DNA from: Bacillota bacterium
GTDB taxonomy: Bacteria > Bacillota > Clostridia > Peptostreptococcales > Anaerovoracaceae
Direction: 5' to 3'
Length of the DNA stretch: 11,710 bases
NCBI GenBank assembly: GCA_030535715.1
Contig: JAUNRL010000014.1
Location: forward strand, 1-11,710
The first letter of the stretch is position 1; the number at the start of each line of letters is the position of its first letter. This document shows positions 1 to 11,710 of this stretch, in pieces. The translations under genes and the position numbers were made by a program. The notes beneath the pieces are model-generated. The model searched no databases. It had not been told where the DNA came from and was given only the letters and a program-made list of their open reading frames with translations.

Positions 1-1
1 A

Positions 2-1114
2 AACATCCGCCGGATTGCCGGCTGGCTGAAGCGGCGGCAGACAGCAAACCGGGTGATCTTCGCCGGGTGGGTTTTTGTGCTGCTGATACTGTATTTCTGG
101 CGGGGATATCCGGCGGTGACCGTCGTCCTGCTGTTTACTCTGGCGTACGCGGCAGCAGCGCTTGTTTTCGTTCAGGCGGGAGGAAAGAATCTGCAGGTTC
201 ACCTGTCCGGAGGGGACATGATCGAAAAGGGCGGGACAATGCAGATCCGCGCCCGGATTGAAAACCGGAGCAGGATCCCGGTTTTTCTCTGCTGCGGAGA
301 AGTGAGCGCCCGGAACCGGCTCACCGGAGAGAATGCCCGATTGCCCCTGCGCATATCTGCGGGGCCGGGCGCATCCGCCGAGCAGGTCTTCGTTCTGACC
401 GATGAGTACTGCGGGCTGATCGACACGGAAGTCCGGGAACTGTTCATTCGTGATCCGCTGGAACTGTTCTCCGCGAAGCGGAACAGCCCGGGCCGGACGA
501 CGGGATACATCGCGCCGCAGATCAGTATAGCCGGCATTCCGGAAAGCTGGCTGGATTCATACAACATGGACAGTTATCAGTATTCTCAGCACGAAAAGGG
601 CAATGATCCCGGAGAGGTATTCGGCGTGCGGGAATATCAGGAGGGAGACAGCCTGAGACAGATTCACTGGAAACTGTCTGCAAAGCTGGAGAACGTCACG
701 GTGAAGATTCCCTCCTTCCCTGTGGAAAATAATATCCTGATCATTCTGGACAACCTGCTGGAGCCGGACAAAGATCTCACTCCGGCACAGAAGAGCTGTC
801 TGACGGAGGAATTCTATTCCCTCTCCGCGGCGCTGCTGGAGCGGGAGATCCCCCACAGTCTCGGCTGGTTCGACGGAGAGGATCAGGTCTTCCTGCTGCG
901 GCGTATCCGCAGCACGGAGGAAATGTGGGCGACGGTGCCGGAGGCTCTGGGCTGCGGATTTCAGGTCAGCGAGATCTCGACGGTTTACCGCTATCTGGAG
1001 AACTGGGGAGGAAGCCGGTTCTCCAACCACTTCCTGGTTACCGGCCAGGAGGGAAGGGATACAGAACGATTGGAGAGCCGGGGTGCAGTTTACGTTTTCC
1101 GGACAACCGAATAA
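2..1114 (+). CDS. DUF58 domain-containing membrane protein (5' end outside the window)
   Basis: The C-terminal half carries the DUF58 hallmark REYQEGDSLRQIHW (629-670), with the conserved R-x-Y-x-x-G-D-x-x-R-x-I-x-W pattern. Two hydrophobic segments lie at the N-terminus (about 53-175), followed by a beta-rich region. DUF58 proteins are usually encoded beside a MoxR-type AAA ATPase and a transglutaminase-like membrane protein; the second partner follows directly here with a 32-nt overlap. The function of the family is poorly defined; it is often linked to envelope or protein-complex maturation. The reading frame is open to the window edge. A GTG at 53 could start it, but no Shine-Dalgarno sequence precedes that codon, and the upstream in-frame residues (IAGWLKRRQTANR) are a plausible cytoplasmic lead-in to the first membrane helix. 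I therefore think the true start lies further upstream. The domain call is firm; the start is not. Confidence 0.88.
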   Translation, partial: NIRRIAGWLKRRQTANRVIFAGWVFVLLILYFWRGYPAVTVVLLFTLAYAAAALVFVQAGGKNLQVHLSGGDMIEKGGTMQIRARIENRSRIPVFLCCGEVSARNRLTGENARLPLRISAGPGASAEQVFVLTDEYCGLIDTEVRELFIRDPLELFSAKRNSPGRTTGYIAPQISIAGIPESWLDSYNMDSYQYSQHEKGNDPGEVFGVREYQEGDSLRQIHWKLSAKLENVTVKIPSFPVENNILIILDNLLEPDKDLTPAQKSCLTEEFYSLSAALLEREIPHSLGWFDGEDQVFLLRRIRSTEEMWATVPEALGCGFQVSEISTVYRYLENWGGSRFSNHFLVTGQEGRDTERLESRGAVYVFRTTE

Positions 1115-3254
1115 AGGAGGGGGAAAGGACTGGCTGCCGGTTCTGGGCGGCGCGATCCTCGGGACGGGATGCTTCATCCTGCTCTGTTCGGCCTTCGCCC
1201 TTCGCTGGTCGCCGACGCAGGCTTTTTTCGGCAATCCCCTGCAGGGTCTGCTGGGTGTGTGCAACGCGGCGGCAGACCGCCTGGGACAGTCGGACTACAT
1301 CCTGTTAAAAAAATACGCCGGTGGCGTGACGGCAGGAGGGGATCCGGCAGCCCAGGGCTTTTTTCTGACCATTCTGCTGGCCCTGCTGATCCTGTTGTCC
1401 TGGATGATTCTGCGCAGCGGATGCCGCTGGCTCCTGCTGATCCCGGCGGTGCCGGCCGCGGCGCTGATGTTCTTCACCCACACGGCGTCGGGGATCTGGG
1501 CCGGCGCGGCATTTGCCTTCGCGCTGACCTGCGCTTTCGCACTCATGTCCGCCGGCAGGACGCTGTCCATATGGCTGCTGGCGGTTCCGCTGCTGGCGCT
1601 GGTGCTTTGCGTCGGCACGGCCGCGGTCATCGATCACAGCGGCGGGTTCGCCCGCACCGATCTGCAGGAAAAAACCGGAGCGGCACTGGAGAACCTGGCC
1701 GCGAAACGCTATGGGGAGAATCCTCTGGGCAGCGGCAGGCTGGCGGAACTGAACGGTGAGAAACTGACTGAGGCGAGGGGAAGCATGGCGGATCCGGCCC
1801 GGGCCATGGGCGGGAAAGGCCAGACGAAGACGGCCATGGAGGTGACGATGAGCCGCCCGGAGCCCATGTATCTGCGCGGATTTGTTGGCGAGATCTACAC
1901 GGGAAAAGGCTGGTCATCCCTGAGCAATTCAACGTTGTACGATCAGCGGGATACTCTCTACTGGCTCAATCGCCAGGGCTTCGACGGGCTCTCTCAGCTG
2001 TCCGAAGCCGCGGCGGCGGCCGGGGAGGCCGGGGAAGCGCAGTCGGTGCATATCGCGGTGAAAACAGCGGATCGGGCCCGGGTTTATACGCCTTATGAGA
2101 TTACGGGCACAGACCTGGCCGTCCCCGAAGGAACGAAAAACTGCGCCGGCGGATTCCTGCGCACGAACCGGTTTGCCGGCACACGCGCCTGTGATTACCA
2201 GGCGATCCCCGGGCTGTCCGCTTCCTGGACGGACTGGGCCGGCCGAATCTACAGCGCCGGGGACAGCGAGGAACTGCAGAAGTATTTCGAGGGCGAAAGC
2301 CACTACAACGTCTGGTGTTACGCCAGCTTCACGGGGATTCCCGGTGCCATGACCGGCCTGCTTCAGGCAGCGGTGGGCAGCCCGGGCGACCTGAGCGAGA
2401 GCCACGCAGACTATAAGGAAACCATCGCGGCCATCCGGACATATCTGGAGGACAATTATCTCTACACGGAAAACTTCACGGTGCCGGAAGCGGGTGAGGA
2501 TGCGGTCGAACATTTCATGGTCACGGGCAGGGGCTGCGACGCCCACTACGCCTCTCTGGCCGCTCTGCTCTTCCGGTATTACGGAATCCCCGCCCGGTAT
2601 GTGGAAGGGTATCTGGTTACCCCGGAGGATACAGCGGGGGCAAAAGCAATGCAGCCTGTGCCCATCGGCGTCAGCCATGCCCACGCCTGGACGGAGATCT
2701 ATATCGACGGGCTGGGCTGGATTCCGGTGGAGATGACCGGCGCCTACCGGGACATTATGCCGGAGGCGGACATGGAGAAGGGCCTGCAGGCCGTGCAGTA
2801 TGCCGCGGTGAAAAAGGATCAGGATAATCCGCCGGAGGAAGAACTGCCCGAGGAGCAGGGCGCGTCCTCCTACGGCAGGCTGCTGTTTCGCATTCTGCTG
2901 CTGGCGGCGGGAATCCTTCTGGCGTTGCTTTTGCTCTGGATCCTGTACCGATTGCTGGGCGATTACCGAGAGAAGCGGGCCAGACAACGGGCCTTCGCCG
3001 ATCCGGATCCGCGGAAGGGAGTCTGCGCCATGTACGGATACCTGCTGCGGGAAGGCGTTCCCTGCAGCAGGGAGGCCAAAGAGATCGGCGACCGGGCATC
3101 CTTCAGCCGGGAGGAAATTGACGAATCGGATCGCACGCGGATGCGCGCAGAAATGGAGTGGGGAGAACGTGAGAAAAAAACTCAGGAAAAACGGAATCAT
3201 CGGATTGCTGCTGATCGTCTTTCTGCTGTTTGCCGCTGGCTGCGGCGGAAGTGA
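1083..3254 (+). CDS. Transglutaminase-like membrane protein (TgpA-like architecture, DUF4129-like tail)
   Basis: This 723-residue protein has about five N-terminal membrane helices (residues ~19-41, 92-109, 113-131, 136-154, 158-180), a large extracytoplasmic part, one more helix (~600-625) and a charged cytoplasmic tail. The transglutaminase core is clear: the catalytic cysteine C485 in GRGCDAHYASLAA, then RYYGIPARYVEGY, then the catalytic histidine H534 in HAHAW, and GWIPVEMT with E550 where many family members have Asp. All catalytic positions are thus plausibly occupied. Related proteins act as proteases or protein-modifying enzymes at the outer membrane face; the substrate is unknown. 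The tail (KGVCAMYGYLLREG...SREAKEI) resembles the DUF4129 region. The GTG start at 1083 has GGAGAG six bases upstream and overlaps the DUF58 gene. A second, stronger Shine-Dalgarno at 1115-1121 has no ATG, GTG or TTG after it, only an in-frame CTG at 1134. The 3' end runs 86 nt into the next gene. Confidence 0.9.
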   Translation: MQFTFSGQPNKGGGKDWLPVLGGAILGTGCFILLCSAFALRWSPTQAFFGNPLQGLLGVCNAAADRLGQSDYILLKKYAGGVTAGGDPAAQGFFLTILLALLILLSWMILRSGCRWLLLIPAVPAAALMFFTHTASGIWAGAAFAFALTCAFALMSAGRTLSIWLLAVPLLALVLCVGTAAVIDHSGGFARTDLQEKTGAALENLAAKRYGENPLGSGRLAELNGEKLTEARGSMADPARAMGGKGQTKTAMEVTMSRPEPMYLRGFVGEIYTGKGWSSLSNSTLYDQRDTLYWLNRQGFDGLSQLSEAAAAAGEAGEAQSVHIAVKTADRARVYTPYEITGTDLAVPEGTKNCAGGFLRTNRFAGTRACDYQAIPGLSASWTDWAGRIYSAGDSEELQKYFEGESHYNVWCYASFTGIPGAMTGLLQAAVGSPGDLSESHADYKETIAAIRTYLEDNYLYTENFTVPEAGEDAVEHFMVTGRGCDAHYASLAALLFRYYGIPARYVEGYLVTPEDTAGAKAMQPVPIGVSHAHAWTEIYIDGLGWIPVEMTGAYRDIMPEADMEKGLQAVQYAAVKKDQDNPPEEELPEEQGASSYGRLLFRILLLAAGILLALLLLWILYRLLGDYREKRARQRAFADPDPRKGVCAMYGYLLREGVPCSREAKEIGDRASFSREEIDESDRTRMRAEMEWGEREKKTQEKRNHRIAADRLSAVCRWLRRK
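1114..1123 (+). promoter_or_regulatory. Strong Shine-Dalgarno-like sequence with no conventional start after it
   Basis: AAGGAGGGGG lies immediately after the DUF58 stop codon (TAA 1112-1114) and inside the transglutaminase frame. No ATG, GTG or TTG follows at normal spacing in any frame; the only in-frame candidate is CTG at 1134. It may mark a CTG start for the transglutaminase gene, a ribosome pause site, or chance. The GTG at 1083 remains my preferred start. Confidence 0.4.
3155..3165 (+). promoter_or_regulatory. Ribosome-binding region that sets the lipoprotein start
   Basis: Two purine runs, GGAG (3155-3158) and GGGGAG (3160-3165), precede the GTG at 3169. Together with the lipoprotein signal peptide that begins exactly at this GTG, they favour 3169 over the in-frame TTG at 3118. 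Confidence 0.5.
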
Positions 3255-4134
3255 ACCTGACGGACAGGCAGCGTCCTCAGCTCAATCCGTCATCCTGGTG
3301 CAGCCGGCCCAGGCGGAGAAGGAAACCGCGGCCCGGCTGATCCGGGATCTGACGGAGGCGGGAGATCCCGGCCCGGGAACGGAATGGAGCATCATCGCCA
3401 TTGCCCGATCCTCTCTGGCGAAGACCCCGGAGGCACAGGCCCTCTTTGCCGCCTATCAGGAGAATCTGCGGCTGCAGGTCAAGCGCGGCAGGGGGATTCT
3501 GGATGCGGAACGTCCTACGGATAACGCCAAGGCGGCCATTGCCCTGCGCATGACGGGCGTGAATCCTTTCTCGGTGGAAGGCTATGACCTGCTTGCCCGG
3601 CTGGAGGATGAGGAGGCAGTGCGGGAGCAGGGCATCAACGCAGAGATCTGGGCGCTGACCGCCGCCGCCGCATGCGGACGGGATCTGGAGGCGGCCGATA
3701 CATTCCGGGTGGATATCCGCGCCATGCAGGGCGCGGACGGCGGCATCACCTTCGACGGGACAGAGCAGGACGTGGACATTACGGCCATGGCCATGCAGGC
3801 GCTTGCCCTGTCCGGGAAAGAGGAGGACGAGGATCTGATCACCGCTGCGCGGGGCTGGCTGGCCGGGAAGCAGGGCGCGGACGGCAGTTTCGTCAATGCC
3901 GAATCCACGGCCCAGGTGATTCTGGCGCTGAACTGCATGGGGGAAGATCCCGCGGCAGCGGAGGATTTCATCCGTGGCAACAGAACGCTGGCGGACGGGC
4001 TGATGGTCTACCGCGTTGGTGACGGGTTTCGCCACCTGGACGAGCAGGAGGCGGACGGCATGGCGACGGAACAGTCCCAGTGCGCCCTGGATGCGCTGAT
4101 GATGGGAAGCGGGGAGCGATTCTATATCCCGTAA
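3169..4134 (+). CDS. Lipoprotein with alpha/alpha-toroid (prenyltransferase/squalene-oxidase-type repeat) domain
   Basis: The product is 321 residues from the GTG at 3169. It opens with a lipoprotein signal peptide: basic VRKKLRKN, a hydrophobic core, then the lipobox FAAGC with the modified cysteine at residue 25 (codon 3241). The mature part has the repeat pattern of the terpenoid-cyclase/prenyltransferase toroid: GINAEIWAL (155-163), ADGGITFDG with DVDITAMAMQALA following (D190 to ~213), ADGSF with AQVILALNCMG following (D238 on), and the late MATEQ motif (298-302). Bacterial relatives often occur with DUF4430, and the same fold forms the N-terminal alpha domain of animal intrinsic factor and transcobalamin. 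It probably acts as a membrane-tethered binding protein outside the cell, not as a terpene cyclase; no cyclase DXDD motif is seen (DVDI is the nearest match). A longer reading from TTG 3118 would hide the signal peptide and is not favoured. It overlaps the preceding gene by 86 nt; the next starts 24 nt downstream. Confidence 0.85.
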   Translation: MRKKLRKNGIIGLLLIVFLLFAAGCGGSEPDGQAASSAQSVILVQPAQAEKETAARLIRDLTEAGDPGPGTEWSIIAIARSSLAKTPEAQALFAAYQENLRLQVKRGRGILDAERPTDNAKAAIALRMTGVNPFSVEGYDLLARLEDEEAVREQGINAEIWALTAAAACGRDLEAADTFRVDIRAMQGADGGITFDGTEQDVDITAMAMQALALSGKEEDEDLITAARGWLAGKQGADGSFVNAESTAQVILALNCMGEDPAAAEDFIRGNRTLADGLMVYRVGDGFRHLDEQEADGMATEQSQCALDALMMGSGERFYIP

Positions 4135-4158
4135 CCGGAAGGAAAGGAAGAGAGCCTG

Positions 4159-5229
4159 ATGAGCAAAGGCAGATGGTTTCTGACCGCGTCGCTGGCGATG
4201 GTCTTTCTCCTCGTGGTCGGAACGACGGTGTTTCTCTACGGACAGGAGGAGTATGAACCGCCCAACCGGGTAGCGGGAACGGATCCCCAGCGGTCCCAGG
4301 TCTATGTGACCGGAACCGGATACATGGTGGATCAGCAACGGGGTAAGATTCATCAGAAAGAAGAAAAACAGAAGAAGGAAGAGCAGGCGACGAAACCGGA
4401 GACGGAGCAGCAGGTCACGCAGCAGCCAGAGGGATCGGCCGGCTCCCGCTCCGTAAAAACCATCCGGGCCCGGCAGGCTTCCCGCAGCTCCGCCAAGAAA
4501 GGAAAGACGGCAGACGGGAAAAAGGGAACAGGCGGAACGGCGCAGAATCCGACCCGGATGGTGCCGACGAAGCAGGAGACGGATCCGACAAAGGGCGATC
4601 CCGGCGGAGAGGAGGGCGAGTCCGAGGAAGATCGGGCGAAGAAGCCGGTCATCCGGATCAGCGTCGCCAGCGGGGAGCGGATCAGCGGACGGACGGTGGA
4701 CTTCACCGTCTCGGTGACGGATTACAAAGGACGGAATGTGCCGGTGTTTTCCGAGGATGACGGCTCCTTCACCGTGACCCTCAACGGAACCCGGCTGTAC
4801 AGCACGGGAATCAGCGGCAGCGGGACAGCCTTCCGCGAGACCATGGCGGAGGGCACCAATGAAATCCGCGTGAGCGCTGCCGACCGGGAGGGACACACGT
4901 CGGTGAAGATCGTCCGGTTTACCGGGAACACCAGCGAAGAGGCGGAGGAGATCGGTGTCGCTGCGGTCAGCATCGAGGCGCCGATCCTGCATCTGGATGT
5001 GATCTGCGCCACGGAGGTGTCCCTGCACCGGGGAGATACGGCGAAGGATGTGCTGGAGACGGCTTTCCGCGAGGCCGGGATCAAACCGACCTTCAGCGGC
5101 GGATATCTGGCCGGCATCAGCCGGCCCGGGATTTCTCAGGACGCGTGGGTTGACGATGAGATCCGAACCCTTATGGAGGAAATGCGCAAGACGGAAAGGA
5201 TCCGGCGAAGCAGGACAGAAATCAGCTGA
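4159..5229 (+). CDS. Membrane-anchored Ig-like/DUF4430 protein, C-terminus lost to a frameshift
   Basis: The 356-residue reading starts at ATG 4159 with AGGAAG eight bases upstream. Residues 1-27 are a signal anchor. Residues ~60-160 form a low-complexity Lys/Glu/Gln/Thr linker that could span the cell wall. Residues ~164-260 look like a bacterial Ig-like beta-sandwich (VIRISVASGERISGRTVDFTV at the start, NEIRVSAADREGH near its end). From ~268 a DUF4430 domain begins: LHLDVICATEVSLHRGDTAK, then DVLETAFREAGIKPTFSGGY and LAGISRPG. The second half of that domain, including the SGW-x-Y-x-VNG motif, is absent in this frame; the reading ends in out-of-frame sequence (ERIRRSRTEIS) and stops at 5229. 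The missing half lies directly downstream in another frame. DUF4430 is related to the C-terminal beta domain of eukaryotic cobalamin carriers, so a ligand-binding role with the upstream lipoprotein is plausible. As written, the product would lack a complete domain. Confidence 0.82.
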   Translation: MSKGRWFLTASLAMVFLLVVGTTVFLYGQEEYEPPNRVAGTDPQRSQVYVTGTGYMVDQQRGKIHQKEEKQKKEEQATKPETEQQVTQQPEGSAGSRSVKTIRARQASRSSAKKGKTADGKKGTGGTAQNPTRMVPTKQETDPTKGDPGGEEGESEEDRAKKPVIRISVASGERISGRTVDFTVSVTDYKGRNVPVFSEDDGSFTVTLNGTRLYSTGISGSGTAFRETMAEGTNEIRVSAADREGHTSVKIVRFTGNTSEEAEEIGVAAVSIEAPILHLDVICATEVSLHRGDTAKDVLETAFREAGIKPTFSGGYLAGISRPGISQDAWVDDEIRTLMEEMRKTERIRRSRTEIS

Positions 5230-5369
5230 GGGAACATGACTTCTATGATTCCTCCGGCTGGATCTACAACGTGAACGGGGAATTTCCGCAGATCGGGCTG
5301 GGATCGTACAAGCTGGAAGACGGCGATGCCCTGTATCTCATCTTCCAGCTGGCGGAGGATGTGTACTGA
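5190..5369 (+). pseudogene. Out-of-frame C-terminal half of the DUF4430 domain
   Basis: In the frame one base back from the preceding gene, this stretch reads DGKDPAKQDRNQLREHDF, then YDSSGWIYNVNGEFPQIG and SYKLEDGDALYLIFQLAEDVY, ending at TGA 5367-5369. These are the typical second-half DUF4430 motifs: SGW-x-Y-x-VNG, then Y-x-L-x-DGD. It has no start codon or Shine-Dalgarno of its own. Adding one base near 5190 (for example a G, turning AAGACGG into AAGGACGG) would join the two frames as ...MRKDGKDPAK... and give a 403-residue protein. The next gene starts 23 nt after this stop, as expected if this is the true gene end. A real mutation and a sequencing or assembly error cannot be told apart from this sequence alone. 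Confidence 0.85.
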
Positions 5370-5392
5370 AGAGGATAACACGAGGTGGCAGC

Positions 5393-8300
5393 ATGAAACG
5401 AAAAAACACAGGACGGAAATTCATCGGGCGGTGCCTGCCGGTCATCGGACTGGCGGTGATGCTGAGCATGGCCTGGATTGCCTTTGCGGGAGACGCGGCC
5501 AGCGCCGCGGATCGGGACATCGAGTGGAGAAGCTACCAGAACAGCGCGGAGAACAACGGCGTCATCGGCGGCATCCCGACGTCCGGGTCCTATGAGGAAA
5601 CCTCCCTGCTCTGGGGGAAGAAAATGGTCAACGGCTACACCGTGTCCTTCACACCGCCACTGATCATCGACGGCGATCTGATCACCGCGTCCAACAGACA
5701 CGTCTACCGGATCGATAAGCGAACCGGGGAGACAAAGGCGACCAGCGCGGAGCTGAAGCTCAATGTGGGATACGCCATGAATCCCATCACCTACGACCGG
5801 GAGAAGGATCAGTTCTATGTGCCCATCATGAACGGCCGCGTGCAATGTCTGGATGGGGAGACCCTTTCCTCGAAATGGATTTCCCGGGAGTACAAATACA
5901 ACCAGACCCTGTCACCCATCGCCTGCAAAGGCGGACTGGTCTACACGGGCATCTGGGAGACGGAGACCGATGACGGCGTATTCTTCTGCCTGAACGCGGA
6001 TACGGGCGCGGAAGTGTGGACATTCCGGCCATCAGAGCACGGGGATCAGCCACACGGATTCTACTGGGCGGGCGCTTACGTCAATGAGAACCATGTTGTC
6101 GTCGGTTCCGATGACGGGGCGAACAACACCTTCGCGGAGGCGTCCAACGAGGCCTATCCGGCAACGGCGGTCGCGTACTGCTTCGACCGGAGAACGGGTG
6201 AAGTCGTCGACCGGATCACCGGGATCAAGGGGGATGTCCGGAGCACGGTGGCTTACCATGACGGCTTTGTCTATTTTGTGTCCAAGGGCGGGCGGCTGTA
6301 CAAAGCGGCGCTCGGTGCGGACGGGAAGTTCAGCCGGGTTTCTTCGATTCAGCTGAAGGACAGCCGGGGCGTGGACGCAATGATGACTTCCACGCCGGTA
6401 ATCCATAATGGCAGGATCTATGCCGGCGCGGCAGGATCGGGAGGCCAGTTCAGCGCCGACGGCGGGCACATGTTCGCCGTGATCCGGGATGATCCGTCTC
6501 TGTCGGACAGCTCGCTGATCTATACGGTGCCCATTTCCGGGTATCCCCAGGCGGCGCCTCTGCTCTCCACGGCCACCGAGGATACCGACGGCAAGGTTCG
6601 CCTCTACTTCACCTTCAACGCCTTTCCCGGAGGGATCTACTGTCTGGAGGATTCAGCGGAGGCAACGGCGGAGCATCATGAGAACGCTCATCTGCTTTAC
6701 CGCCCGAAGCAGGAGATGCAGCAGTACTGCATCAGCCCCCTGTGCTGCGACCGGGACGGAACCTTCTATTACAAGAATGACAGCGGGTACATGATGGCGG
6801 TCGGCATGAACAGGGCCTGGCTCAGCGGGATCGACGTCACCTGCACCCAGGGCGAGGTGGTCTGGGAAAGCGCCTTTGCTTCCGGCACCCTGAACTATAC
6901 CCTGAACGCGCCCGGCGGAGCGAACGAAGTGAAGATTTCTCCGCGCATTCCGGAGGGAAGCGGGATGACGGTTACCGTGGACGGGAAGCCCTTTGCCGGG
7001 CAGCCTGTCGCCGCGGCGGTCGGGACGCAGTCCCGAGCCGTTTCCGTGGAGGTGACGAAGACCGCGGGAGACCGGAGCTGGACCAGAACCTATGCGCTGA
7101 ATATCAGTTCGGCCTTGGACAACGCGAATCTGGCCGGACTGGCCATTACCGACAGCAATATGAAGCCCCAGATTGTCGACACGGAGACCCAAAAGGCCAG
7201 CGGGATTGGCGTGGGGTATGACCCGGACTTTGATGCCGCCATTGTCGACTACACGGGCAGGACCTACGAAGGAGAAAAGACCTTCCTCAACATCTGGCTG
7301 CAGACGGCGGACAGCAAAGCTTCATTGCGGATCGTCCCGGCGAGCCATGTGGGCAACAGTTCGCCAAGCAAGTATATGAATGCGGACGGCACCCTCAAGC
7401 CGGCGCAGAACGGAAGGTATCCGATCTACTGGGTCAGGGGGGCCAACTCCGCGGAAGTGGACGTGGAAGTGACCTCCGCCAGCGGGAAGAGCACGAAGGT
7501 GTATCGTGTGACCCTGGTCCGGGGCAGGAATCACCTGGATGTCGGTGAGGATCCTCTGATCCTGACGCCCTCTTCGGCGGTGCTGTATACCGGCGGGAAG
7601 GAGCAGAGGGTACAGGTTTCCGCTGTTTTCCGCGGAGAGGACGTGACCGGCGAGTGCGCTTTCACATCGACGGATCCGAAGGTGGCGGTGGTCAGCGCCG
7701 GCGGGACGATTACCGCTGCGGGTACGGGAGAGGCGGAGATCTGGGTCGATCTGACCCGGGAGAACCGCCGGGAACGGATCCACGTTGAGGTGGAAAACCC
7801 GAAACTGGAGCCTCCTGCGGCATCCCTGCGCGGCGGCACATATGAACAGCCGCTTCAGCTGGTCCTGCAGGCGGATCAGCCAGGTGCGCAGATCCGATTC
7901 AACATCGCCGAGGGCGAAGAAGAACCGCCGGTGCCTGTCACGACGACCGGAACGGTTTATGACGGCCCCATCGCCATCGGCAGGGACGGAGAGTGCGTCT
8001 CGGTGACCATCTGTGCTATTGCCTGCGGTAAAGGATTTTCCAAAAGCGATCCCGCCAGATTCCAGTATACGGTGGATCTGACGGAAGGCCCGAAGACGGA
8101 GCCCAACACCGTGTCCCCGGAGCCGGGCAGCATTGCCGTGGCGGAGCAGGATGCGACGGCCTTCGCGGCCCTGCCGTCAGGGATATCCTATGAAGCGCTG
8201 ACCGCGAAATTGGCAGCGGTGGAGACCGTCCGGGTGATTCTGACCGGAGGATCGGATGTGAGCGGCGTCGATCTGTCGGATTCTGATTACCCGCGGATCA

Positions 8301-9013
8301 GCGCTGATGTGACATGGGACGGTGAGGAAACCTACGCCTACGATCCGGCAGACAGCCGGGAACAGAAATTCTTCGTCGGCGGAACGGTTACTCTGCCCGG
8401 GGGCGTCAGCGATGGCGGCAGCACCCTGCGGGCATACCTTCCGGTGACCGTCCGCGCGGCGCCAGAACCCCGGCCCAGGCCGGTGCCGGGCGCCGTGAAC
8501 GGGTTTGCGGCGAAGGTGAACGCGAACGGCAAAACGGTCACCGTCAGCTGGAACCCTGCCGCCGGTGCCGGCGGCTATGTGGTCGGCTGGCGGAAGGCCG
8601 GCGGCGGGTGGAATACAGTCCGGATTTCCGGGACATCCCATACCCTGTCCGGTCTGGCGCCTGGCGGGTGCTATGAGGTTCGGGCGGCGGCGGTGAATGC
8701 TTCCGGTCAGGGAGCATGGTGCTCACCGGCCGGCTGTCTGATTCAGAAGACGACCCTGAAGGTGAAGGCAGGAAAGAAATCCTTTACCGCGAAGATGAAA
8801 AAGGTAAAGAATATCAGCGGCTACCAGATCCGGTATTCTCTCCGGACCGACATGGCCGGAGCGGGAATAAAGAATACGAAAAAGAAGTCCGTTAAGGTAA
8901 AAAAACTGCAGAAAAAGAGAGTGTACTATGTGCAGGCCGTGCCGTATAATAATATGGGCGGGATGGTCTATTACGGCGAAATCGCCTCGAAAAGGGTGAA
9001 GATCAGGAAATAG
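5393..9013 (+). CDS. Large secreted PQQ-type beta-propeller protein with Ig-like, chitobiase-C-like and FN3 domains
   Basis: A 1206-residue protein from ATG 5393, with GAGGTGG just upstream. A signal peptide (basic MKRKNTGRK, hydrophobic core, likely cleavage after DAASA near residue 39) exports it. Residues ~42-475 form a beta-propeller with PQQ/BamB-like blade motifs such as HVYRIDKRTGE, VQCLDGET, FFCLNADTGAEVW, AYCFDRRTGEVV and GGRLYKAAL. Next come two cadherin-like beta-sandwich regions (~478-575, ~577-715), a BIG2 Ig-like domain (~720-800, LTPSSAVLYTGG...GTITAAGTGEAEIWV), a chitobiase/hexosaminidase C-terminal-like domain (~801-895), an unassigned region (~900-1025), and two FN3-like domains (~1030-1116 and ~1120-1206). 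The last is lysine-rich (GYQIRYS, VKVKKLQKKRVYYVQA). No LPXTG motif, SLH repeat or C-terminal helix is seen, so it may be released or bound through its basic tail. No catalytic motif was recognised. Its place between two DUF4430 genes suggests a scaffold or binding role in the same extracellular system. Confidence 0.87.
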   Translation: MKRKNTGRKFIGRCLPVIGLAVMLSMAWIAFAGDAASAADRDIEWRSYQNSAENNGVIGGIPTSGSYEETSLLWGKKMVNGYTVSFTPPLIIDGDLITASNRHVYRIDKRTGETKATSAELKLNVGYAMNPITYDREKDQFYVPIMNGRVQCLDGETLSSKWISREYKYNQTLSPIACKGGLVYTGIWETETDDGVFFCLNADTGAEVWTFRPSEHGDQPHGFYWAGAYVNENHVVVGSDDGANNTFAEASNEAYPATAVAYCFDRRTGEVVDRITGIKGDVRSTVAYHDGFVYFVSKGGRLYKAALGADGKFSRVSSIQLKDSRGVDAMMTSTPVIHNGRIYAGAAGSGGQFSADGGHMFAVIRDDPSLSDSSLIYTVPISGYPQAAPLLSTATEDTDGKVRLYFTFNAFPGGIYCLEDSAEATAEHHENAHLLYRPKQEMQQYCISPLCCDRDGTFYYKNDSGYMMAVGMNRAWLSGIDVTCTQGEVVWESAFASGTLNYTLNAPGGANEVKISPRIPEGSGMTVTVDGKPFAGQPVAAAVGTQSRAVSVEVTKTAGDRSWTRTYALNISSALDNANLAGLAITDSNMKPQIVDTETQKASGIGVGYDPDFDAAIVDYTGRTYEGEKTFLNIWLQTADSKASLRIVPASHVGNSSPSKYMNADGTLKPAQNGRYPIYWVRGANSAEVDVEVTSASGKSTKVYRVTLVRGRNHLDVGEDPLILTPSSAVLYTGGKEQRVQVSAVFRGEDVTGECAFTSTDPKVAVVSAGGTITAAGTGEAEIWVDLTRENRRERIHVEVENPKLEPPAASLRGGTYEQPLQLVLQADQPGAQIRFNIAEGEEEPPVPVTTTGTVYDGPIAIGRDGECVSVTICAIACGKGFSKSDPARFQYTVDLTEGPKTEPNTVSPEPGSIAVAEQDATAFAALPSGISYEALTAKLAAVETVRVILTGGSDVSGVDLSDSDYPRISADVTWDGEETYAYDPADSREQKFFVGGTVTLPGGVSDGGSTLRAYLPVTVRAAPEPRPRPVPGAVNGFAAKVNANGKTVTVSWNPAAGAGGYVVGWRKAGGGWNTVRISGTSHTLSGLAPGGCYEVRAAAVNASGQGAWCSPAGCLIQKTTLKVKAGKKSFTAKMKKVKNISGYQIRYSLRTDMAGAGIKNTKKKSVKVKKLQKKRVYYVQAVPYNNMGGMVYYGEIASKRVKIRK

Positions 9014-9019
9014 GAATCC

Positions 9020-9026
9020 GGAGGAA
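9020..9026 (+). promoter_or_regulatory. Shine-Dalgarno with very short spacing
   Basis: GGAGGAA directly abuts the ATG at 9027, leaving only two bases between the GGAGG core and the start codon. No better in-frame start follows before the membrane anchor, so 9027 is kept. The tight spacing may lower translation. Confidence 0.45.
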
Positions 9027-9635
9027 ATGGAACAGGAACTGCTGAACAAAGTCAGAAGAAAACGGCAGAGAACCATCGGGATCGTTGTGCTCATCGCGGC
9101 CTTTGCCGCGCTGGCGGTCTTCGGTCTGTTGCAGCAGACCGGGGAGGATCCCCGGTCCGGCGGCGGGGATGCGGGCGCAGCGTCGCCGCCGGCCCGGCAT
9201 TACGTTACGATGGAGATTACCTGCTGGGATCTGTCGGAGCATATGGATCGGCTGACCGATGAAGCGGTGCGGGAGTACATTCCGGAGGATGGGGAGATTC
9301 TGGCCCCGGTCAGAGTTGCCTTTGCGGAAGGGGAGACCGTCTACGATGTGTTGTGCCGGACATGTCGGGAAAAGAAGATTCCCATGGAGTCCAGCGAGGA
9401 TCCGGTGTACCGGTCCCGGTACGTGGAGGGGATCGGCCGCTTGTACGAGAAGGATGCCGGCAAGCGCAGCGGCTGGACCTATGAGGTGGATGGGGCGCAG
9501 CCGAACTACGGATGCTCGAAGTACAGGCTGAAGAACGGAGAGGCGATCCGCTGGGTCTACGTCACCGATTATACGGAGCAGACAAAGGCATCGGGCGGTA
9601 CGGGCAGCGGCGGCGCCGGGAAGGAGGCGGACTGA
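9027..9635 (+). CDS. Membrane-anchored DUF4430 (transcobalamin C-terminal-like) protein
   Basis: A 202-residue protein with a basic N-terminus (NKVRRKRQRT) and a single hydrophobic helix (~13-35), then a short Gly/Ser/Asp linker and one complete DUF4430 domain to the C-terminus. Visible motifs are VTMEITCWDLSEHMDRL, the PEDGEIL turn, FAEGETVYDVLCRTCREKKI, YVEGIGRLYEKD, SGWTYEVDG (S148-G149-W150 onward) and the terminal YRLKNGEAIRWVYV. The domain is related to the beta domain of intrinsic factor and transcobalamin, which closes over cobalamin in those carriers; whether this one binds cobalamin is not known. The helix would place it on the outer face of the cytoplasmic membrane, next to the ECF transporter whose EcfT subunit starts one base before this gene's stop ends. 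That coupling suggests it delivers ligand to the transporter or helps it gate. The domain call is firm, the ligand is inference. Confidence 0.9.
   Translation: MEQELLNKVRRKRQRTIGIVVLIAAFAALAVFGLLQQTGEDPRSGGGDAGAASPPARHYVTMEITCWDLSEHMDRLTDEAVREYIPEDGEILAPVRVAFAEGETVYDVLCRTCREKKIPMESSEDPVYRSRYVEGIGRLYEKDAGKRSGWTYEVDGAQPNYGCSKYRLKNGEAIRWVYVTDYTEQTKASGGTGSGGAGKEAD
9123..9155 (+). other. Two overlapping inverted repeats inside the DUF4430 gene
   Basis: GGTCTG (9123-9128) pairs with CAGACC (9135-9140), and CCGGGGA (9139-9145) pairs with TCCCCGG (9149-9155) around a three-base loop. The two stems share two bases, so they would compete. They lie in the linker between membrane helix and binding domain. 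No T run follows, so this is not an intrinsic terminator. In GC-rich coding DNA it may be chance. Confidence 0.35.
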
Positions 9636-10528
9636 TGCTCAGGGAAGGGCTCGGCGAGCATTCGGCCTTTGGGGAGTACCATCCTTTGATCAACCTGACC
9701 TATTATATATTTGCCATCGGCGTCACGGTTTTTTCCCTGTCGCCCGGGTTCCTGGTAACCACCTTCCTGCTGGCCTGGGTCTACTCGGTGATGCTGCGGG
9801 GAACATCGGCCATGCGCATGAACCTGATATTCATTCTCTGGATTATCGTCGTCATGGCGCTGATCAACGTGCTCTTCACCCATCAGGGGGAAACGGTGCT
9901 GTTCTGTCTGCACGGCAATCGGATCACCGCGGAGGCCCTGATATACGGGCTGTCCGCGGCGGTCATGCTCAGTGCCGTGCTGATCTGGTTCACCAGTTTC
10001 AACGCGGTCATGACAGCGGAGAAACTGATTTACCTCTTCGGCCGGGCAGCGCCGGTGCTGGGGCTGACCCTGTCCATGATCTTCCGTTACATTCCCCTGC
10101 TGAAGAATCGCTATGAGGAGATCCGCATGGGGCAGAGGTGCATGGGCCGCGGCGCGGCGTCCGATCCCACCTTCCTGCAGCGCCTGCGCCAGGACGGAAG
10201 GAACGTGTCCGTACTGATCTCCTGGTCCCTGGAGTCCTCCATTGAGAACGCGGATTCCATGGAGGCCAGAGGCTACGGCCTGAAGGGGAGAACCAGTTTT
10301 CATCTCTACCGGTTCACGGCAGGAGACGCGGCGATGGAGATCTGGCTGTGCGCTCTGGGTGCGGTCTGCGTCTGCGGCTGCGTGCTGGACAGAACCGATG
10401 CTTTCTTCTATCCCCGCTACATCCCCCATCCCCTGGACGGAGGCGCCACCGTGACCCTCGCCGCCTTTGCGTGTCTTCTGGCTACGCCGATCGTTCTGGA
10501 TCTGCTTGGAGAAAGAAAATGGAAGTAA
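9635..10528 (+). CDS. ecfT: ECF transporter transmembrane subunit (EcfT/CbiQ family)
   Basis: The 297-residue product starts at ATG 9635, with AAGGAGG (9621-9627) seven bases upstream, and overlaps the previous stop (TGATG). A longer in-frame reading from 9512 lies inside the upstream gene and is rejected. The protein has several hydrophobic helices, an N-terminal FGEYHPLINLTYY element typical of EcfT, and a cytoplasmic coupling region with two arginine motifs: QRCMGRG (M170-G173, first motif with Gly in place of Ala) and MEARGYG (A211-R212-G213, canonical). These motifs dock on the EcfA ATPases in ECF transporters. EcfT links ATP hydrolysis to toppling of a small substrate-binding S component, which is not encoded in this window. 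Translation is probably coupled with both neighbours. The association with DUF4430 proteins suggests a dedicated transporter, not the general vitamin module. Confidence 0.92.
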   Translation: MLREGLGEHSAFGEYHPLINLTYYIFAIGVTVFSLSPGFLVTTFLLAWVYSVMLRGTSAMRMNLIFILWIIVVMALINVLFTHQGETVLFCLHGNRITAEALIYGLSAAVMLSAVLIWFTSFNAVMTAEKLIYLFGRAAPVLGLTLSMIFRYIPLLKNRYEEIRMGQRCMGRGAASDPTFLQRLRQDGRNVSVLISWSLESSIENADSMEARGYGLKGRTSFHLYRFTAGDAAMEIWLCALGAVCVCGCVLDRTDAFFYPRYIPHPLDGGATVTLAAFACLLATPIVLDLLGERKWK

Positions 10529-11710
10529 TCCGATTTGACAACCTGACCTTCACCTACCCCATGAGCGCTTCGCCGGTGCTGAACGGGATCTCCTTCGCCG
10601 TGGACGAGGCGGAGTTCCTTGTGGTCTGCGGTAAGTCCGGCTGCGGCAAGTCCACTCTCCTGCGCCAGATCAAAAGGAGTCTGATCCCCTACGGCCGGCG
10701 CACAGGGGAGGTGTTCTATTACGGCGAGCCGGCGGATCAACTGGACGAACGGCGTGGCGCATCGGAGATCGGGTTCGTGCAGCAGAACCCGGATAACCAG
10801 ATTGTTACCGATAAGGTCTGGCATGAACTGGCCTTCGGACTGGAGAGTCTGGGCATGGAGGGCACGGCCATTCGCAGGAGGGTGGCGGAGATGGCCAGTT
10901 ATTTCGACATCCAGGGGTGGTTCCGCAGGGATGTGGCGCAGCTTTCCGGAGGGCAAAAGCAACTCCTCAACCTGGCCTCCGTCATGGTGATGCAGCCCAG
11001 GCTGCTGGTGCTGGACGAGCCTACGTCCCAGCTGGATCCCATCGCCGCTTCCGAGTTCCTGCAAACCATCCGGAGGGTCAACCGGGAACTGGGCATCACG
11101 GTCATCCTTTCGGAGCATCGGCTGGAGGAGGTTTTCTCCATGGCGGACCGGGTGATGGTGATGGATCAGGGAGACGTGCTGGCCTGCGGCAGCCCCCGGC
11201 GGATCGGCGGGCAGCTGGCGCGGATGGAGCATCCCATGTTCCACGGTCTGCCGGCGGTGACGAAGATCTATCACGCCGCGGAGATGAAGGGTACGGATGG
11301 GGCAGAGGCGGCTTCGGCGGAGAGCGGGAACGCGCCGGAGAAGGGGGCTGCGCCGGCGGCGGGCGAAGGCCCTCTGACCGTTCGGGAGGGACGGCTCTGG
11401 CTCAGGAAGCGGACGGAAGAGGCCGGCCTGGATGCGGCGGACGCCACGGATCTCTGGGAAAAGGTCTGCGGGAACCGCCCGCAGCATTTCCGGAAGGATC
11501 GGACCGGGCCGGCGATCCGCATGAAAAACGTGTGGTTCCGCTACGGCAGAGATGGCGCCGATGTGCTGCGGGATCTGAATCTGGAGGTTTTCCCCGGGCA
11601 GCTGTACACTCTGCTTGGCGGAAACGGCGCAGGAAAGACCACGGCGCTGAAGGCGGCGCTGGGTCTGATCGCCCCCCGGCGCGGCAAAGTGAGCGCCGGC
11701 GGCCGCATCG
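10519..11710 (+). CDS. ECF transporter ATPase with two fused ABC domains (EcfA type), 3' end outside the window
   Basis: The frame opens at ATG 10519, overlapping the EcfT stop by 10 nt, and is still open at the window end (397 codons seen). The first ABC domain is complete: Walker A GKSGCGKST (residues 38-46), Q-loop VQQNPDNQ, signature LSGGQ (142-146), Walker B LLVLDEP with D166-E167, and H-loop H200 in SEHRLEE. A linker (~255-290) rich in Ala, Gly and Glu follows, then a second ABC domain beginning near IRMKNVWFRYG with Walker A GGNGAGKTT (367-375); the rest is cut off. This matches the fused double-ATPase form of ECF energising subunits (CbiO/YkoD-like), which needs no separate partner ATPase. 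It powers EcfT-driven import on the cytoplasmic face. Linker length and composition are unusual only in being low-complexity. Confidence 0.93.
   Translation, partial: MEVIRFDNLTFTYPMSASPVLNGISFAVDEAEFLVVCGKSGCGKSTLLRQIKRSLIPYGRRTGEVFYYGEPADQLDERRGASEIGFVQQNPDNQIVTDKVWHELAFGLESLGMEGTAIRRRVAEMASYFDIQGWFRRDVAQLSGGQKQLLNLASVMVMQPRLLVLDEPTSQLDPIAASEFLQTIRRVNRELGITVILSEHRLEEVFSMADRVMVMDQGDVLACGSPRRIGGQLARMEHPMFHGLPAVTKIYHAAEMKGTDGAEAASAESGNAPEKGAAPAAGEGPLTVREGRLWLRKRTEEAGLDAADATDLWEKVCGNRPQHFRKDRTGPAIRMKNVWFRYGRDGADVLRDLNLEVFPGQLYTLLGGNGAGKTTALKAALGLIAPRRGKVSAGGRI

Follow-up and report, generated by a model that had tools for sequence, protein, structure and literature searches.

The stretch analyzed here, referred to as the window, comprises 11,710 nucleotides from an assembly of a Bacillota bacterium (GCA_030535715.1, contig JAUNRL010000014.1) and carries a tight run of genes for a putative system of cobalamin or corrinoid capture coupled to an energy-coupling factor (ECF) importer. 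The window occupies the first 11,710 bases of contig C212 (13871 bases in all), which belongs to a 1.23-Mb assembly of 221 contigs that is ~90% complete, and the run continues past the window end. The following features were identified.

2 to 1114, plus strand: DUF58 protein (PF01882, E value 2.2e-5), its 5′ start truncated by the contig end.
1083 to 3254, plus strand: membrane transglutaminase (PF01841, E 1.3e-22).
3169 to 4134, plus strand: toroid lipoprotein, the predicted barrel half of a transcobalamin/intrinsic-factor-like carrier (from sequence, AlphaFold, Foldseek, and a match to SQHop_cyclase_N, PF13249, E 2e-4, below the Pfam cut-off).
4159 to 5369, plus strand: membrane-anchored DUF4430 protein no. 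1, frameshifted (open reading frame [ORF] at 4159-5229; DUF4430 match at 5244-5339 in the other frame, E 1e-7).
5393 to 9013, plus strand: secreted PQQ-type beta-propeller protein with cadherin-like, Big_2-like, and fn3 domains (Pfam).
9027 to 9635, plus strand: membrane-anchored DUF4430 protein no. 2, the predicted beta-grasp half (transcobalamin C-terminal type; PF14478, E 4.6e-17).
9635 to 10528, plus strand: EcfT transmembrane coupling subunit (PF02361, E 5.9e-10).
10519 to 11710 and beyond the window, plus strand: double EcfA ATPase, EcfA-EcfA′ (ABC domains; TIGR04520, E 3.1e-71, under the curated cut-off).
Contig positions 12224-13192, ~0.5 kb past the window end: EcfS, an S component of 322 amino acids (profile match to CbrT).
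Directly after the S component gene: ATP synthase I-like gene (ATP-synt_I, E 0.016, under the Pfam cut-off).

All of the window genes lie on one strand; adjacent ones overlap by as many as 86 bases or stand at most 24 bases apart. The run as a whole supplies an S component, EcfT, and two EcfA domains. The toroid lipoprotein, the two DUF4430 proteins (including the frameshifted one), the propeller protein, EcfT, and the double EcfA named in the first-pass annotation of this DNA were all confirmed on the same strand. Many genomes repeat the core gene order, which indicates that the locus is not a chance arrangement. In a relative (G003), the position of the ATP synthase I-like gene is followed by what we take, by recognition, to be F1Fo genes. 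An Rfam scan of the window alone returned one RsmY candidate whose 19.9 bits fall well below the cut-off of 57, a chance-level score that was set aside.

The lipoprotein has a cysteine at residue 25 which, as judged by eye, is compatible with a lipobox. It shares 86% identity with its counterpart in G003 and has matches at E ≤ 0.001 in 29 of 100 relatives' genomes. Its toroid and that of a lipoprotein at another locus, described below (L126:2592-3917), match the NCBIfam Streptomyces family SCO2321 (E 1.1e-6 and 6.6e-15, respectively, both under the cut-off), hinting at an actinobacterial branch. In the propeller protein, PQQ_2, Cadherin-like, and fn3 domains score above their Pfam cut-offs and Big_2 just below (21.3 bits against 22.8); propeller homologues are present in some sister loci only. 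The DUF58 and transglutaminase genes form a trio with a gene that we presume, by recognition, to encode a MoxR-like protein (window 1-3254 plus C97:177-1112 [L138], on a separate contig of the same genome). This trio is found within the riboswitch-led run of both the window's genome (G000) and G003. In G011 and G042 it precedes the toroid, and G006 and L113 contain part of it.

A profile built from 12 S components of the window's genome and related genomes (A1) was compared with the solved structures in the PDB, and the top match was 6fnp_A (E 1.6e-13), which we take to be CbrT, the cobalamin S component of Lactobacillus delbrueckii (the listing reads "membrane protein"). A riboflavin component (3p5n) followed at E 3e-6, and all others were at 0.002 or weaker. 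The same profile has a match at E ≤ 1e-10 in 32 of 61 relatives' genomes. An S component for an unrelated substrate, which would have spoken against the corrinoid reading in the first-pass annotation, was looked for, and the best solved relative turned out to be CbrT. Family names point elsewhere: the S component matches PF07155 (ECF-ribofla_trS) at E 9.7e-17, over its cut-off, and TIGR04518 (FolT family) at E 4.4e-9, under its cut-off, as would be expected of a carrier of riboflavin or folate. However, the profile favors CbrT over other solved S components by seven orders of magnitude, the riboswitches found are of the cobalamin type, and Rfam scans of 18 stretches contained no flavin mononucleotide or folate riboswitch. 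A riboflavin or folate substrate is therefore highly improbable, and we rejected it. The S components of the window's genome (L043:12224-13192) and G003 also carry an insert of ~65 residues after a GQGPWTPWQM motif that is absent from the other ten rows of A1.

The genome that contains the window also encodes a cobalamin riboswitch (RF00174; C97:2898-3119, minus strand, 108 bits). On C97 it is followed by genes for a 572-amino-acid surface protein, a MoxR-like protein, and the start of a DUF58 protein. C97 overlaps window bases 1-172 with 162 of 172 positions identical (94%), and provided that this overlap joins the contigs, the riboswitch lies ~2.7 kb before window base 1 on the same strand. 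The mismatches suggest that two strains are present in the bin, which makes the junction likely rather than proven. In G003 the arrangement is contained in one contig: a riboswitch at C20:27465 heads a one-strand run, with all gaps ≤ ~100 bases, that encodes in order a propeller protein, two surface proteins, MoxR-like, DUF58, and transglutaminase proteins, the lipoprotein, a DUF4430 protein, a propeller protein, a second DUF4430 protein, EcfT, EcfAA, and EcfS.

We also surveyed the best 80 of at least 584 S-component loci; since the best-scoring loci were kept, the set represents the nearest relatives and not a random sample, and some of the loci, L048, L052, and L057 at least, appear to be records that are also in the relatives' genome set. 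Riboswitches were sought with a covariance model built from 18 riboswitches (threshold E ≤ 1e-3), and toroid and DUF4430 genes were detected with home-made profiles. The 80 loci contained 40 riboswitch matches, 39 of them on the strand of the S gene, against ~1.7 expected, an expectation that uses the density from other genomes and Rfam's own model (285 RF00174 matches in ~215 Mb across 100 genomes, the window's own included, 86 of which had at least one). Matches occurred at 35/80 loci; at 32 of these they preceded the S gene on the same strand, as they did at 28/56 of the loci with at least 6 kb of upstream sequence. When 14 loci were retested with Rfam, all 12 with a match to our own model at E ≤ 1e-3 reached the gathering score. 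Rfam detected no cobalamin riboswitch at L103, which our own model had not matched either, or at L126, where the own-model match stood at E 0.058. Twelve of 23 further stretches from the window's genome and relatives also had a match at E ≤ 1e-3, although some of these were model-building sequences. Riboswitches of this family, for which the first-pass annotation had proposed checking homologous loci, are present both in the window's own genome and at many such loci.

A toroid and/or DUF4430 gene lies upstream of the S gene at 55/80 loci and at 46/56 of those with at least 6 kb upstream (39 with a toroid, 44 with DUF4430, and 37 with both). Among the 55, the halves are on separate ORFs at 27, a single ORF contains both in either order at 20, DUF4430 is alone at 10, and the toroid is alone at 2, with some overlap of these classes. 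The split seen in the window, found at about half of these loci, is thus not peculiar to it. Thirteen ORFs at named loci fuse toroid and DUF4430 in the order found in the animal carriers, and at 41 of the 55 loci no more than 150 bases separate EcfT from a DUF4430 ORF that stands alone. Loci with capture genes were found in, for example, Paenibacillus, Clostridium, Blautia, Lutispora, Pelotomaculum, and many uncultured Clostridia.

Other riboswitch arrangements were seen in the same material. A second cobalamin riboswitch in the window's genome (C62:8837-9031; L139) precedes a gene that is cut by the contig end and whose lipoprotein-like product has a domain of the cobalt chelatase type CbiK. 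In G022, three consecutive cobalamin riboswitches (L026:16426-18623) each precede a DUF4430 gene, and two of the three products, each of 138 amino acids, agree in their first 70 and in their last 40 residues. A Blautia metagenome-assembled genome (L050) has an opposite-strand cobalamin riboswitch and Clostridiales-1 RNA (2125-2270 and 2389-2547) upstream of a DUF4430 gene.

Fold comparison links the capture domains to the animal B12 carriers, and it is the only comparison that does so. The AlphaFold model of the window lipoprotein is an alpha/alpha barrel (pLDDT 87.9) for which rat transcobalamin (8ixu) is the best Foldseek match (TMq 0.56, E 3.3e-4). Terpene cyclases and prenyltransferases are close behind, and since the cyclases score nearly as well, the match of the barrel alone is suggestive rather than exclusive; a terpene cyclase function for the toroid seems unlikely given its context. 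The window DUF4430 proteins are assigned to the beta-grasp type by PF14478, and the fold match for this half comes from a natural fusion, the 441-amino-acid lipoprotein L126:2592-3917, in which a toroid is followed by DUF4430 and which is about the size of an animal carrier. For its model (pLDDT 88.7, pTM 0.74), PDB ranks 1-15 are all transcobalamin, haptocorrin, or intrinsic factor, with alignments of 421-470 columns and E values between 4.7e-10 and 1e-7; the series of terpene cyclases and prenyltransferases starts at rank 16. The model also matches the isolated transcobalamin beta domain (5no0/5np4; E 2.2e-4, TMt 0.70).

The gene set of the host fits a corrinoid-salvaging organism, as judged from an incomplete assembly. 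Corrinoid-dependent enzymes, another check proposed in the first-pass annotation, are represented by a MetH-like protein, which falls short of the full-length cut-off of TIGR02082 (E 9.8e-116), and a lysine 5,6-aminomutase beta subunit, which scores over its cut-off. With respect to a lack of key B12 synthesis enzymes in the host, a trait associated with the SLBB scavengers of 2007 discussed below, CobS and the CbiK domain were found, and the CbiC family and the adenosyltransferases (BtuR-type and PduO-type families) were looked for and not found in the ~90%-complete assembly. A match to the methionine synthase activation domain on C144 (E 8.7e-6) was not used, as its ORF had no NCBIfam match.

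Taken as a whole, the locus is very probably a cobalamin or corrinoid scavenging system of a Gram-positive-type bacterium in which toroid and DUF4430 carrier halves feed a CbrT-like ECF importer. What is shown here is the gene content and order, the riboswitch, the homology of the S component to CbrT, and the match in fold of the window barrel and of both L126 domains. When intracellular B12 is low, the upstream cobalamin riboswitch would open and the run would be expressed. The toroid lipoprotein and the tethered DUF4430 proteins would then act as the two halves of a carrier, holding a corrinoid between them outside the membrane, and the corrinoid would be handed to the CbrT-like S component, with EcfT and the EcfA pair driving import. 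The first of these steps is proposed because of the riboswitch family and the last because of CbrT; the joint binding and the hand-over we infer, and the identity of the ligand is likewise a prediction. As the weakest step of the scheme, the propeller protein and the MoxR-DUF58-transglutaminase trio probably help to build or tether a surface layer. The corrinoid reading put forward in the first-pass annotation is thus well supported, with ligand binding and a shared cavity as its predicted elements.

The idea itself has a precedent. Burroughs, Balaji, Iyer, and Aravind named the SLBB superfamily in 2007 (PMC1796856) and, in the portion of that paper considered here, described bacterial members that are secreted and carry a fused alpha/alpha toroid or propeller, as well as operons that encode a second SLBB protein, a CbiO-like ATPase, and a CbiQ-like protein, and predicted B12 scavenging; they also derived the animal carriers from bacterial transcobalamin-like domains. 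The first-pass idea is therefore a sound rediscovery rather than a new one, and the locus supports the 2007 proposal while stopping short of proving binding. The secreted or anchored beta-grasp, toroid partners, second paralogue, propeller (one case there), and CbiO/CbiQ-like operon are common to both descriptions, whereas the S component and riboswitch are found here; the word riboswitch occurs 0 times in the 2007 paper, and an S component is unmentioned in that portion of it. The present analysis adds an S component of the CbrT type, statistics on the riboswitch, a natural fusion that matches the carriers in fold, and a view of how widely the complete locus is distributed. In the open-licence papers searched, we have seen no report that combines the riboswitch with DUF4430 and toroid genes.

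Several observations weigh against this interpretation. The riboswitch of the window's genome is on a separate contig whose sole link to the window is the 94%-identical overlap, and within the stretch covered, no same-strand riboswitch was found upstream of the S gene at 28/56 loci, although three of these (L050, L101, and L110) have one elsewhere in the stretch. A riboswitch is present at 24/46 loci with an upstream toroid or DUF4430 gene and at 4/10 loci without; being about equally common in both, it marks the transporter rather than the capture proteins, and a specific association with the latter was not borne out. These 10 of 56 loci (two of which, L055 and L061, have the capture genes downstream) are also what would be expected if the ECF transporter imported corrinoids alone and the toroid, DUF4430, and propeller proteins had another job, such as adhesion, wall building, or a second ligand, in the same B12-regulated run. 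The adhesin-like propeller, fn3, and SpaA-like domains are compatible with such a role, and the ECF-CbrT complex of L. delbrueckii needs no such partners for transport in proteoliposomes, according to the part of PMC5997447 considered, in which the CbrT structure is also reported. The window system differs from ECF-CbrT in having EcfT and EcfA in the same run as well as extracellular partners, in its substrate being predicted, and in its longer S component (322 amino acids, with an extra N-terminal segment and the insert, against 182 in the CbrT chain), while sharing a homologous S component with EcfT and an EcfA pair. Against a purely surface-related role stand the close spacing of DUF4430 genes and EcfT at 41/55 loci and the B12-carrier fold of the two domains, fused in carrier order in 13 ORFs, and we consider such a role unlikely.

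The likeness to intrinsic factor proposed in the first-pass annotation is seen in one respect, as L126 matches the carriers over both domains, and is limited in another. The arrangement of its domains is unlike that in the solved carriers (whole-chain root mean square deviation of ~23 A, TMq 0.36-0.47), so the match extends to the domains and not to how the apo model places them relative to each other. In sequence, the DUF4430 profile (A4) found no transcobalamin in the PDB at E ≤ 10, and the toroid profile (A5) found squalene-hopene cyclases at E 1.9e-15 and no intrinsic factor. The family PF01122, which we take to be the eukaryotic cobalamin-binding family, is not among the matches listed for the window lipoprotein (E ≤ 1) or L126 (E ≤ 0.1). 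Transcobalamin, haptocorrin, and intrinsic factor share the alpha/alpha barrel and the beta-grasp with the window proteins and are the best fold matches, but each is one soluble protein, whereas in the window the barrel and beta-grasp are encoded by separate genes, tethered to the membrane, and placed beside an ECF importer, with cobalamin binding predicted.

The window toroid is also divergent (29-37% identity to other toroids), and the frame of DUF4430 protein no. 1 breaks near 5200, such that its Pfam match falls in the second frame. Together with the S component insert in G000 and G003, these features would fit a locus that is decaying or has shifted in ligand. Every other gene is open, however, and G003 has an intact copy of DUF4430 protein no. 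1 (L023:10086-11303). With 221 contigs and apparently mixed alleles (the 94% overlap), the frameshift may be a fault of the assembly, with strain variation and real loss as the other candidate causes. Decay or a change of ligand is, on this evidence, improbable.

Bacteroides BtuG is a surface beta-propeller for B12 that is located beside a B12 importer. The window has a surface propeller in a comparable position, although it is of the PQQ type, carries Ig-like domains, and has homologues in some loci only. A bolder version of the scavenging system, in which the separately tethered halves close on a corrinoid and deliver it straight to the ECF S component, with the propeller as a third, BtuG-like grabbing part, is one that we regard as doubtful. 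If true, the ancestor of intrinsic factor and transcobalamin would have, in the split carrier, a relative that still lives on in Gram-positive bacteria.

The part of PMC6593275 considered here calls it an open problem to identify, in gut genomes, which transporters serve B12 and its precursors, and B12 capture by Gram-positive bacteria ahead of the membrane appears to be little studied. Loci of this type offer small proteins, above all the 441-amino-acid L126 fusion, with which the mechanism of capture could be probed. The same proteins bear on the 2007 proposal that animal intrinsic factor arose from such bacteria.

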